Origin: Betaproteobacteria bacterium
GTDB lineage: Bacteria; Pseudomonadota; Gammaproteobacteria; Burkholderiales; JAHFQX01
Assembly: GCA_023259135.1 (NCBI GenBank)
Contig: JAHFQX010000003.1
Coordinates: 35,257-83,124, forward strand
Direction of reading: 5' to 3'
Length of the DNA stretch: 47,868 nucleotides
Shown: positions 22,773 to 27,927 of the stretch, piece by piece
Layout: each line of letters begins with the position of its first letter
Numbering within the stretch: the first letter of the stretch is position 1
Notes under the pieces: generated by a model
What the model saw: only the letters and a program-made list of their open reading frames with translations
What the model was told of the DNA's origin: nothing
Database searches by the model: none
Made by a program: the position numbers and the translations under genes

Positions 22773-22779
22773 CCGATAG

Positions 22780-22816
22780 CCCAGTAGCAATAGGCCACTA
22801 AAATTAGTCACCGGAC
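22780..22816 (+). repeat. short dispersed repeat, copy 1 (intergenic)
   Basis: Between the SDR and CoA-transferase genes, a stretch starting CCCAG and containing GGCCACTAAA and then GTCACC closely matches 27785-27831, which lies inside the AlgR-like gene. This copy lacks about 9-10 bases in the middle. No function is assigned. Confidence 0.5.
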
Positions 22817-22832
22817 GAAAAGGACGCGAACC

Positions 22833-24020
22833 ATGGCCGTATTGGAAGGCATCACCGTATTGGATCTTTCCCGGCTCATCGCCGGGCCCTACGCCACCAT
22901 GGTGCTGGCGGACCTGGGGGCTCGGGTCATCAAGGTGGAATCCCTGACGGGCGAGGACGGCCGTCATTTCGGTCCGCCCTTTTACGGCGACGTGAGCGTC
23001 ACCTTTATGACCTGTAACCGGGGCAAGGAATCCATCAGCTTCGACGTGCGCACTCCGGCTGGCAAGGAAATCCTGGCACGGCTGCTGCGCCGTTCCCAGG
23101 TGGTGGTCCACAACTTCCGGCCGGATTTCGTGGAGCAGCACGGGCTGGGCTACGAGGAGCTGCGGCGCGTCAATCCGGAGATCATCTACTATGCCGTGAC
23201 TTCTTACGGAGAAACGGGACCTTACCGCCTGAAGCCGGCGGTGGACAGCGTCATCCAGGGCGTGGCCGGAGCCTTTTATGCTTGCGGCGAGGAACAAGAC
23301 CCGCCGATTCGCATCGGCCTGCCCATCGTGGATATCTCCGCCGGCATGTGCGGGGCCACCGGCTTGCTGGCGGCCATCATGGAATACCAGAAAACCGGCC
23401 GGGGCCAGCGGGTGGAGCTCACCCTCATCGACACCATGCTGAATTTCCTGGCCGGCAAGATCGGCGAAACCGCGGTGGAAGGCCGCCCGCCCCTCCGGGA
23501 AATCAACCTGCCCATCGCCGTGCCCAGCCGGCATTTTCGGGCCGCCGACGGCGCCTATTTCAGCGTCTCGGTGGTGAACAACGGCGCCTTCAAGCGCTTT
23601 TGCAAAGTCATCGGTCGTCCCGAATGGATCGAGGACTCGCGCTTTTCCGGCAACCCCGGCCGCATCGCCAATCGCAAGACGCTGCTGGCCGAACTGGCCA
23701 CGATCTTCGCCACTCGCCCCGCTCAAGAGTGGGTAGCCGCCTTCGACGCCGCCGATATTCCCACCGGTCCAGTGAACACCGTGCCCCAAATGCTGCAAGA
23801 CCCGGTGCTGCGGGGCCGGCTGGTGGAGCATCCGCAAGTTCCCGGTCTGCCCGCCATCGGTTTCCCCGCTCAATTGTCCCAAGGCATGCTCAAGATCGAG
23901 GACATGCCTCCGCCCCCCCGCATGGGCCAGCACACCACGGCGATTCTGAAAGAAGTGGGTTACGGCGACCATGAAGTGGCCCGCCTGGTTGCCCAGGGGG
24001 CGGTAAAAGCTTCGGGTTAA
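22833..24020 (+). CDS. CaiB/BaiF family III CoA-transferase
   Basis: The 395-residue protein begins MAVLEGITVLDLSRLIAGPY, followed by ATMVLADLGARVIKVE and NRGKESISFDVRTPAGKE. VVVHNFRPDFVEQHGLGYEEL and ITSYGETGPYR-like VTSYGETGPYRLKPAVDSVI are present, then LPIVDISAGMCGATG with the Asp expected to form the acyl anhydride. Family III enzymes move CoA between carboxylic acids without ATP. It belongs with the upstream SDR gene. Substrate unknown. It is a different sequence type from the racemase-like member at 4692-5819 (no GHDLNY). Its stop overlaps the convergent fructosamine-kinase relic by 4 bp. Confidence 0.92.
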   Translation: MAVLEGITVLDLSRLIAGPYATMVLADLGARVIKVESLTGEDGRHFGPPFYGDVSVTFMTCNRGKESISFDVRTPAGKEILARLLRRSQVVVHNFRPDFVEQHGLGYEELRRVNPEIIYYAVTSYGETGPYRLKPAVDSVIQGVAGAFYACGEEQDPPIRIGLPIVDISAGMCGATGLLAAIMEYQKTGRGQRVELTLIDTMLNFLAGKIGETAVEGRPPLREINLPIAVPSRHFRAADGAYFSVSVVNNGAFKRFCKVIGRPEWIEDSRFSGNPGRIANRKTLLAELATIFATRPAQEWVAAFDAADIPTGPVNTVPQMLQDPVLRGRLVEHPQVPGLPAIGFPAQLSQGMLKIEDMPPPPRMGQHTTAILKEVGYGDHEVARLVAQGAVKASG

Positions 24021-24671: not shown

Positions 24672-26078
24672 CTAGAGCCGAGCGCGGGCCCGGGTGATGG
24701 CTTTCCGGACCTGCTCCGGAGCCGTGCCGCCGATGTGGTTGCGACTCGCCAGGGAACCCTCCAAGGTCAACACCGCGTAGACGTCCTCCCCCACCAGCGG
24801 CGAGAACTCGCGCAGCGCCGCCAGGGACAGGGCGCTCAAATCGCAGCCTTGCTCCACCGCCCGCCGCACCGCCCGGGCCACGGCTTCGTGGGCGTCGCGG
24901 AAGGGCAAGCCCTTCTTGACCAGATAATCGGCCAGGTCCGTGGCGGTGGCGTAGCCCTCCTGGGCGGCCTGGGCCATGGCGGCGGGGCGCACGATGATGC
25001 CCCGCAGCATGTCGGCGAAGATCCGCAGGCTGACTGTCAAGGTATCCACGGTGTCGAACAGCGGCTCCTTGTCCTCCTGGTTGTCCTTGTTGTAGGCCAG
25101 CGGCTGGCCCTTCATCAGGGTGAGCAGCGCCATCAGGTGGCCGTTGATCCGGCCGGTTTTGCCCCGCAGCAGCTCGGCCACGTCGGGGTTCTTTTTTTGG
25201 GGCATGATGGAAGAGCCGGTGCAGAAACGGTCCGCCAGGTCCACGAAGCCGAAGCGGGGATTCATCCACAGGATCAGCTCTTCGGAGAAGCGCGACAGGT
25301 GGATCATCAGCAGCGCGGCCCAGGCGCAGAATTCGATGGCGAAATCCCGATCGGAAACGGCGTCCAGGGAATTTTCGCACACGCCGTCGAAGCCCAGTTC
25401 CCGGGCTACCCGCTCGCGGTCGATGGGAAAGCCGGTGCCTGCCAGGGCCGCCGCCCCCAGAGGCAGGCGGTTGATGCGCTTGCGGCAATCGGCGAGCCGG
25501 GCCGCATCCCGGTCCAGCATCTCGAAATAGGCCATGAGGTGATGACCGAAGGACACCGGCTGGGCCACCTGGAGATGGGTGTAGCCCGGCATCACGGTGT
25601 CGGCGTGCGGCTCGGCGACCTCCAGCAACGCCAGTCGGGCGTCTTTGAGCAAGGCCAGCAGCTCGTCCGCCGCCGCCCGCAAATAAAGGCGAATGTCGGT
25701 GGCGACCTGATCGTTGCGGGAACGGCCGGTGTGCAGCCGCTTGCCGGCATTCCCCACCAGATCGGTGAGACGCTGCTCGATATTGAGATGCACGTCCTCC
25801 CAGTCCAGCGACCAGGGGAAAGTGCCGCCGCGGATTTCCTCCAGGACGCGGGCTAGGCCGGTTTCGATGGCGGCCAGATCGGCGGCATTCAGAATGCCCA
25901 CGGCATGCAGCATGCGGGCATGGGCCAGCGAGCCTTGAATGTCGAATTCGGCCAGCCGCCGGTCGAAATCCACCGACGCGGTATAGCGCTTCACCCACTC
26001 GCTGACCGGCTCGCTGAAACGCCCCGACCAGAGCTTACCGGCGGCGGGGGAAGGAAAATCGGGTTGCTTTGGGTCCAT
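24672..26078 (-). CDS. argH: argininosuccinate lyase
   Basis: ArgH splits argininosuccinate to arginine and fumarate, the last step of arginine synthesis. The 468-residue protein shows [56 protein letters not shown] and the signature loop [19 protein letters not shown] with the catalytic Ser. The ATG at 26078 (MDPKQPDF) is preferred over an upstream start at 26135 inside the divergent kinase gene. The adjacent algZ/algR-type pair is its usual divergent neighbour in beta- and gammaproteobacteria. Downstream it abuts the truncated fructosamine kinase. Confidence 0.95.
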
Positions 26079-26101
26079 GGCTTGGTCAAAATCGTCGGGC
26101 C

Positions 26102-27118
26102 ATGGCAAGTATAAAGCAAAACCTCGCCCCCCCATCCTTGCCCAACTTCCGCAATTTGGGGGTGCAACTGCGGATTCTGGTGCTGGCCAACCTGGCCCTG
26201 GCGGCGGCAGCTTTCGCCAAATCCTCCGGCTATGCCGATGGGTGGCAGACCCTCGCGGCGGATTCCATGCTGGCCCAGCCCGTCATCATCGCAAGCCTGC
26301 TGTTGCTGGCGGCCGTCAATCCGGTGTTCTCCCGGCTGCCCTATGCCGCTGGGGCGATCTTGGTGCTGCTGCTGGAATTGGGGCTGACCGGCGCCCTGTA
26401 TCAACTCACGCGGGGACCCTGGGCCGACGCAACGATGGGGCCGGAGCGGCCGCTGATCTTCGCCGCCGCGGTGACCCTGCTGGCCCTGGGCTATTTCCAC
26501 CTGCGCATCCGCGCCCTGTCCCCCGCGGTGTCGGAAGCCCGGTTGCAAGCCTTGCAGACCCGAATCCGGCCTCACTTTCTGTTCAACAGCCTGAACGCGG
26601 TGCTGAGCCTGATCCGCAGCGATCCGAAGCGGGCCGAGGCGGCCTTGGAAGACTTGGCCGACTTGTTCCGGGCACTGATGGCCGATCACCGCAAGCTGGT
26701 GCCGCTTGCCCAGGAAGTGGAATTGTGCCGGCGCTATCTCGATCTGGAGCAGTTGCGCCTGGGGGAGCGGCTGCAAGTGGAATGGCATTTGGAGTCCATG
26801 CCCGAGGACGCCCTCATCCCGCCCCTGGTGCTCCAGCCCCTTATCGAAAATGCCGTCTATCACGGCGTGGAGCCGAGCCTGGAGCCCGGTGTGATCCGCA
26901 TCGAGATCCGCCTCTCGGGCAAGCAAATCAAGGCGACGCTGCGCAATCCCTATCACGGGGAAAACCGCCACCCGGCGGGCAACCGAATGGCGCTGGACAA
27001 CATCCGGGAGCGCTTGAGCCTGCATTTCGACGCCGAGGCGTCGCTGCGGACCGCGGTGCATGACGGGGGCTACGAAGTTCGTATCGTTTTGCCCTACCCG
27101 ACCCGGGAGGTGGCGTGA
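26102..27118 (+). CDS. LytS/AlgZ-type sensor histidine kinase
   Basis: The 338-residue protein has four N-terminal membrane helices (for example [47 protein letters not shown] and [15 protein letters not shown]). The phosphoacceptor box is [17 protein letters not shown], and the ATP-binding N-box is [17 protein letters not shown]. This is the His_kinase/LytS layout of AlgZ. The ligand is unknown. It starts only 23 bp from the divergent argH start, so the promoters must overlap coding DNA. Its stop overlaps the response-regulator GTG (GTGA). The gene symbol algZ would fit by synteny but the regulon is not known here. Confidence 0.88.
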
Positions 27119-27927
27119 GAGTCCACGGCCCCTTGCGGGTGGCCATCGTCGACGACGAGGCGCCGGCCCGCCGCCGGCTGCGGGAACTGCTGGAGGATTG
27201 CGCCGCGCAACTGCCGCTGGAAATCGTCGGGGAAGCCGATAACGGCCGGGCCGGAGTGGATTTGCTGGGCCGTTGTCCGGCCGATGTGGCGCTGCTGGAC
27301 GTGCGCATGCCGGGCATGGACGGCATCGAAGTGGCGCGGCATCTCGGCCGGTTGCCCCAGCCTCCGGCAGTGATCTTCGTCACCGCCTTCGATGCCTACG
27401 CTATCCAGGCTTTCGAAGTGCATGCCGTGGATTACCTGCTCAAGCCGGTGCGGCTGGCCCGCCTCAAGGAGGCGCTGCAACGGACCCATCCGGCGAAGCC
27501 GGAAATTCTGCGGGAAATCGCCCCTGCTCCCAACGGCTATCTGAGCATCCAGGAAAAAGGCCGGGTGCGGCTGATCGCCATCGAGGAGGTGATCTACCTC
27601 AAGGCCGAATTGAAATACATCACGGTACGCACTCGGGAGCGGGAATATCTGCTGGAGGATTCGCTGGCGGCGCTGGAGCAGGAATACGGCTCCCGCTTCC
27701 TGCGGGTGCACCGCAACTGCCTGGTGGCGCGGGACTGGATTCGGGGTTTCGAGAAACAAGCCGGGCCGGGCAATGAATCCCTGGCCCAGAAACAATGGCC
27801 ACTAAAGGGCCACCAGAATCGGTCACCCGACTGGGTGGTGGTGCTCAAGGAGATCGAGGAGAGATTGCCGGTCAGCCGCCGGCAACAGCATCTGATACGC
27901 AACACCGATTGGCTGGGCCCCGTTTGA
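27115..27927 (+). CDS. LytTR-type response regulator, AlgR-like
   Basis: The 270-residue product has a receiver domain (RVAIVDDEAPARRRLRELLE; phospho-Asp in VALLDVRMPGMDG; FVTAFDAYAIQAFEVHAVDY; Lys in LLKPVRL). A C-terminal LytTR DNA-binding domain follows (VIYLKAELKYITVRTREREY, RFLRVHRNCLVARDWI, EERLPVSRRQQ). It is translated from a GTG overlapping the kinase stop. Between RGFEK and WVVVLKEIEERLPVSRR there is an extra segment of about 26 residues (including QWPLKGHQNRSPD). It coincides with a dispersed DNA repeat, so the LytTR domain may be disturbed. Hence AlgR-like, functionality uncertain. Confidence 0.87.
   Translation: MRVHGPLRVAIVDDEAPARRRLRELLEDCAAQLPLEIVGEADNGRAGVDLLGRCPADVALLDVRMPGMDGIEVARHLGRLPQPPAVIFVTAFDAYAIQAFEVHAVDYLLKPVRLARLKEALQRTHPAKPEILREIAPAPNGYLSIQEKGRVRLIAIEEVIYLKAELKYITVRTREREYLLEDSLAALEQEYGSRFLRVHRNCLVARDWIRGFEKQAGPGNESLAQKQWPLKGHQNRSPDWVVVLKEIEERLPVSRRQQHLIRNTDWLGPV
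27785..27831 (+). repeat. short dispersed repeat, copy 2 (inside the AlgR-like gene)
   Basis: Starts CCCAG, contains GGCCACTAAA, and ends GTCACC plus a few bases; it resembles 22780-22816. It keeps the reading frame open and encodes the extra segment in the LytTR domain. No function known. Confidence 0.5.

Follow-up and report, generated by a model that had tools for sequence, protein, structure and literature searches.

The window analysed here, a stretch of 47,868 nucleotides, corresponds to C26:35257-83124 (contig:positions). The genome comprises 86 contigs with 2,581,219 bases in total, at 98.99% completeness and 0.47% contamination. An open reading frame at 27115..27927 (+) of the window encodes an AlgR/LytR-type response regulator, with Pfam matches to PF00072 (Response_reg, E 9.7e-24) and PF04397 (LytTR, E 1.3e-17). 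Directly upstream, at 26069..27118 (+), is an open reading frame that we take, from its motifs, to be a sensor kinase-like gene and the partner of the regulator. An argH-like gene on the opposite strand adjoins both genes within 24672-27927 (names by reading), an arrangement reminiscent of the Pseudomonas order, argH-algZ-algR. The LytTR domain of the regulator gene carries a 48-nt repeat copy at 27782..27829 (+). A second copy, of 38 nt, lies between genes at 22777..22814 (+). According to the ORF list, it has an SDR-type dehydrogenase gene on one side and, close downstream, the start of a gene at 22833..24020 (+) that we assume from its reading to be CaiB/Frc-type CoA-transferase-like.

The copy in the LytTR gene encodes LAQKQWPLKGHQNRSP in reading frame A3, which makes up residues 223-238 (L223-P238) of the regulator. 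The first-pass annotation of this DNA had described an extra segment of about 26 residues here. The insert is present, but the stretch from GFEK to WVVVL is 25 residues long, of which 16 come from the repeat and the other 9 are ordinary loop. In 39 regulator homologues, the distance from GFEx to the next strand was 5-19 residues compared with 25 here; it was 9 in 14 of the 39, and one homologue had 19. The alignment of AlgR homologues that the annotation had proposed therefore confirms the insert. When the 48 nt were removed from the gene by script, the frame was kept and a 9-residue loop was left. In an AlphaFold2 model of the regulator based on 11 sequences (mean pLDDT 81, pTM 0.49), residues 218-235, which hold most of the insert, were predicted as a loop with pLDDT < 50 between strands 209-214 and 240-244. 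The repeat lengthens one hairpin loop of the LytTR DNA-binding domain by 16 residues.

The annotation had also noted that 27785-27831 resembles 22780-22816 in the same order, with a shorter middle in the latter. With a model of the 48-nt unit, the first member of this pair extended over 27782-27829 (E 9.7e-17) and the second, whose middle lacks 10 nt of the unit, over 22777-22814 (E 5.1e-08). Since both copies are among the 10 sequences from which the model was built, they match it by construction. GGCCACTAAA by itself was not enriched, either in the window with up to 2 mismatches (29 matches vs 31.9 expected) or as an exact word across the genome (4 vs 15 for the reversed control). A genome search for GGCCACTAAA-N(up to 30)-GTCACC, the kind of pattern that had been suggested, found the literal form at the two window copies only, but the family proved far larger (at least 36 sites). 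The refuting condition named in the annotation, two occurrences in the whole genome, thus holds for the literal pattern and fails for the family. One of the four GGCCACTAAA places, in C42, sits in a longer stretch that is like the regulator copy throughout. Blastn of the whole genome with this 83-nt stretch returned 28 hits at E <= 10, with the top ten at E <= 1.5e-5 and the regulator copy at E 6.9e-10, which provides independent support for the LytTR copy. The family was detected once a 21-nt module was allowed to be absent, single or double.

The repeat unit consists of a left part, TAGCCCAGAAACAA, a 21-nt middle module, TGGCCACTGAAGGGCCACTAG, present 0, 1 or 2 times, and a right part, AATCGGCCACCAG. 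Without the module it is a 27-nt core, and the unit lengths are 27, 48 or 69 nt, all divisible by three. Most intergenic copies are also multiples of three in length; the two bounded copies of other lengths, 38 nt (C26:58033) and 29 nt (C83), are both intergenic. These results indicate that the length belongs to the unit itself, which is thus inherently tolerable in genes. The mean pairwise identity without gaps was 0.74 among nine 48-mers and 0.80 among sixteen 27-mers. The copies are therefore rather diverged and make no case for recent movement. Within each unit, a GGCCAC-type word occurs two to four times at short spacing. Units stand in tandem at C46, C42, C16 and C27, and C16 also has the 21-nt module twice, which suggests that repeat units also duplicate in place. 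Tandem words of nine (ATGGCCGCT) and twelve bases were found at C31:39717 and C31:23409. At loci L163, L174 and L175, copies lie beside other seemingly repeated words (GAAACCC/GGGTTTC tracts; GAAGCCTGTCCTGAGCGAAGTCGAAGGG), which hints that sites with neighbouring short words may collect small repeats.

The census used three sequence-only models, R1 for the 48-nt unit (10 rows), R2 for the 27-nt unit (10 rows) and R3 for the middle module (11 rows). It is a lower bound, because 150 of 1951 (R1), 150 of 4734 (R2) and 150 of 3439 (R3) first-look candidates were scored. Model rows match their own model by construction. R1 gave at least 17 matches at E <= 2.2e-5, 6 of the 17 not being model rows, and R2 gave at least 18 at E <= 0.0036, with 8 of the 18 outside the rows. 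At least 22 matches were obtained with R3 at E <= 0.0019, and two of the sites found by R3 alone were not model rows. The union of the three models comprised at least about 42 units at a minimum of 36 sites on 20 contigs of the 2.58-Mb genome, with 7 of the 36 counted sites on contig C31. Several of the copies that R3 alone detected measure 22-33 nt, which is short, and the match at C3:36573 could be due to chance. Matches at C36:57048, C23:1902, C4:28637, C53:37217 and C42:48226 were judged to be natural protein motifs and excluded from the count. Plausible matches above the E cut-offs were left uncounted, namely C46:21988 (E 0.010) and C27:9595 (E 0.026) for R3, C48:11438 in an ABC-F gene (E 0.047) and C44:28855 (E 0.83) for R2, and C42:63955 (E 0.013) for R1.

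Other genomes were searched with R1, R2 and a 37-nt pattern, with stricter filters applied above 40 genomes. Across 273 other genomes of the class, R1 gave one match (E 2.2e-4) compared with at least 17 here. This match, in G400, covered the middle part only in an AT-rich context and was taken as chance. At E <= 1e-4, R1 had no match in 398 other genomes of the order, all of them from other families, compared with at least 15 here, and at E <= 0.005, R2 had none in 184 other genomes of the class, compared with at least 18 here. The 37-nt pattern was absent from the 398 genomes of the order with up to 3 mismatches allowed. There was no match to the repeat in the plasmids searched and none to two patterns in viral contigs; a search of phages returned one 19-base match (E 0.9), which was taken as chance. 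Rfam gave a single match for seven repeat loci, under its gathering score and off the repeat. A literature search with four pieces of the repeat sequence found no match, and it is on literature searches alone that we call the family undescribed.

By ORF reading, 21 of the 36 counted sites fall within a likely gene and keep its frame, and 11 are intergenic. The remaining 4 are ambiguous and lie at the PhoH N-terminus (C31:21039) and at the starts of a nucleotidase-like ORF (C39:39078), kdsC (C42:22797) and ruvB (C36:18251). The host gene was backed by a family or a solved structure at 16 of the 21 in-frame sites. Family matches were obtained for the LytTR regulator, PilW, a CorC-like protein, a Csx16-like protein, an E1 dehydrogenase, an AMP-binding ligase, an HD domain, a PolB-type exonuclease, GGDEF, radical SAM, MlaA and TonB, while PmbA, PrlC, YbeY and DctP were compared with a solved structure or family. 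The copy in a seventeenth supported host, an E2 acyltransferase, may be a chance match, since its domain has no extra length; this site is included in the 21 and left out of the 16. The in-frame sites without family support are C16, C31:39717, C39:15484 and C46:17135.

Both orientations are represented among the 21 in-frame sites, which were tallied by reading as A2 5, A3 7, C1 7, C2 1 and C3 1. Frame A1 opens with a stop, and five of the six frames are stop-free. As both orientations and five frames are in use, the repeated entity is the DNA and not a peptide. The peptides encoded by the in-frame copies are unrelated (SPETMATEGPLESAT, AQKQWPLKGHQNRPP, LVADSSGPSVAIVSGL), so peptide selection cannot account for the similarity of the repeats. 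Copies occupy loops, linkers, leader regions or the ends of proteins, and they lengthen the host proteins by about 9 to 32 amino acids. In the comparison of PmbA with structure 3qtd, two gaps (3 and 13 residues) fell at the copy and together made up 16 residues. PrlC had 38 residues where 4ka8 has 12, a gain of about 26, at a tandem of 27 and 48 nt that encodes 25. At the 27-nt copy of YbeY, comparison with 1xm5 showed 6 extra residues, three short of the 9 expected. The aligned part of DctP starts past the copy, which places the insert outside that comparison. The annotation had proposed a short, dispersed repeat whose insertion into coding DNA is tolerated, similar in idea to protein-coding repeats; the 36 or more sites, the homologues without the insert and the in-frame copies in many genes bear this out.

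Copies at N-termini may lie outside the translated part if translation really starts further downstream, a warning that PMC3733652 gives for REPs. At C39:15484 and C46:17135, the repeat seems to code for some of the hydrophobic core in putative signal peptides (LLVAFQWLLL and LVAASASGPF, respectively), so it may have been co-opted into a secretion signal there. In a PilW-like protein (C42:52646) and another pilin-like protein (C31:39717), the copy stands immediately before the N-methylation motif and, if translated, makes the prepilin leader longer. At C39:39078 and C7:5895, the upstream gene (ArgB-like in the former, PmbA in the latter) ends with a TAG stop that the opening three bases of the unit provide.

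The annotation had further suggested a mobile or palindromic repeat; a palindrome was not supported. Single-strand folds of five repeat sequences gave z of -0.41 to -1.56, none significant, and RNAalifold found 4 pairs, with no covarying pair. Inspection of the consensus and the folds revealed no terminal inverted repeats in the unit. Target-site duplications of 2, 3, 4 and 5 bases were matched in 1, 1, 0 and 0 of 26 bounded copies, compared with shuffle expectations of 2.3, 0.2, 0 and 0.05. The base preceding TAG at the unit start was not conserved. In the left flank, position -4 was C in 21 of 26 copies (binomial 4.7e-7 from the C content of the window, with 16 flank positions inspected) and in 18 of 23 when tandem neighbours were excluded (binomial 7.3e-6). 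This hints at a target preference or at a longer repeat end.

Taken together, we consider that the stretch in the regulator gene is probably (about 0.78) one copy of a modular, dispersed, non-palindromic DNA repeat that is tolerated in frame and was seen in this genome only. With a unit length that is a multiple of three and five stop-free frames, insertion would extend a protein; it is for these two reasons that the protein is lengthened and not broken. We infer that the repeat is mobile from its dispersal and from the homologues that lack the insert. The direction, insertion as opposed to loss, is drawn from distant homologues because the genomes compared include none of the same family. Copies would stem from DNA that was copied at another place in the genome and then inserted, the repeat would be a small non-autonomous mobile element served by some other function, and harmful insertions would be removed by selection. 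It is possible, although we regard it as doubtful, that the repeat is among the smallest known mobile DNA elements adapted to coding DNA. Such an element would have a 27-nt core free of hairpin and inverted ends that accepts the 21-nt module, prefer targets with C at -4 of the left flank, keep its length a multiple of three so as to spread through genes in either orientation and in five frames, and be moved by undescribed machinery.

Several of these features would be shared by a REP or REPIN that a RAYT (Y1 tyrosine transposase) moves, as with the intragenic GTAG repeats of other bacteria. The unit begins with TAG and supplies the upstream stop at two sites or more, which PMC3733652 also describes for GTAG REPs. 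Its tandem copies read GTAG, and the genome has two Y1_Tnp transposase genes, both in C42 (30321-30659 and 34453-34776). Yet no R1 match at E <= 1 was found within 1.5 kb of either gene, and the one R2 match within this distance (16 nt, E 0.033) was not convincing. Both genes are flanked instead by other short repeats, GGGGACAGACCACGGTTT and GACCCCATTACC. We rejected a RAYT link of the repeat on these grounds, and as the base ahead of TAG varies and neither a hairpin nor a covarying pair was found, a REP origin is unlikely. GGGGACAGACCACGGTTT, the flank of the first Y1_Tnp gene, fits GGGGWSAS, the motif of the TIR-associated Y1 transposases described in PMC3733652.

The closely spaced GGCCAC-type words and the roughly eleven intergenic sites would also fit clustered binding sites of a regulator or nucleoid protein that incidentally occur in genes. 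This is improbable, because the lengths fall on 27, 48 and 69 nt, in steps of the 21-nt module, and the whole segment is missing from homologous genes, whereas evolution by point changes would add no length. Local slippage or recombination could have expanded GGCCAC-rich words in place, independently in each gene and without movement between sites, and the nine- and twelve-base tandem words and the doubled C16 module are of the kind it would leave. However, local expansion cannot yield the non-repetitive TAGCCCAGAAACAA and AATCGGCCACCAG on many contigs, and these parts are nearly absent from hundreds of other genomes. We consider slippage very improbable as the origin of the repeat, although it may well act on copies after arrival. 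That the LytTR loop is ordinary lineage-specific variation, resembling 22780 by chance, is scarcely credible given the match of the C42 copy to the LytTR copy in the genome and the exact account of the 16 extra residues by the 48-nt unit; in its favour are the two genomic occurrences of the literal pattern and the 19-residue loop of one homologue in 39. The blastn match, the R1 census and the R1 search of 273 other genomes refute it, unless the family as a whole is due to chance.

In-frame dispersed repeats are an example of selfish or neutral DNA that extends working proteins. The in-frame cases that we found in print, Rickettsia palindromic elements (RPEs) and REPs, are palindromes. If a single genome holds about 36 sites of a modular family that is not palindromic, this would decouple in-frame tolerance from hairpin-dependent transposition. 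The copies of such a family are also natural insertion sites for probing the tolerance of 9 to about 32 extra residues, with the AlgR-like regulator, PmbA, PrlC, YbeY, TonB and the prepilin leader as candidates for such tests.

Small dispersed repeats (SDRs) of Nostoc reportedly have units of 21-27 nt with nested insertions, encode no transposase and occur in one lineage, and several are said to share a predicted secondary structure. In these respects they resemble the present repeat, whose 27-nt core takes up the 21-nt module 0-2 times and which was not found in the 398 other genomes of the order. Unlike them, it has another sequence and host and no significant fold, and its in-frame coding copies are its main feature. 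MITEs with ORFs are described in the review PMC10969869 as small non-autonomous elements that may form in-frame fusions with genes. The present repeat is likewise small and in frame with genes, but neither the terminal inverted repeats nor the target duplication of MITEs were found in it. RPEs, according to PMC10969869 and PMC3767692, are palindromic, about 100-150 bp long and in frame in Rickettsia genes. As in RPEs so described, the copies here are short and dispersed, many of them in frame in unrelated protein genes and others intergenic. In contrast to RPEs, they are modular, measure 27, 48 or 69 nt, have no palindrome and belong to another lineage. REPs are palindromes with a conserved tetranucleotide, many of them tied to a RAYT gene, and PMC3733652 describes GTAG- and CGTC-tagged REPs inside ORFs of several bacteria, with extra residues, a TAG end serving as stop codon and grouped units. 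Small intragenic units, extra residues, TAG-supplied stop codons and grouping are common to those REPs and the repeat reported here. However, it lacks a hairpin with a conserved tetranucleotide at its foot, and, unlike in a REPtron, no convincing matching repeats flank the Y1 transposase genes. Since it behaves in frame like RPEs and REPs but departs from them in palindrome, tetranucleotide and Y1-transposase link, we class it as a non-palindromic, modular, in-frame dispersed repeat.
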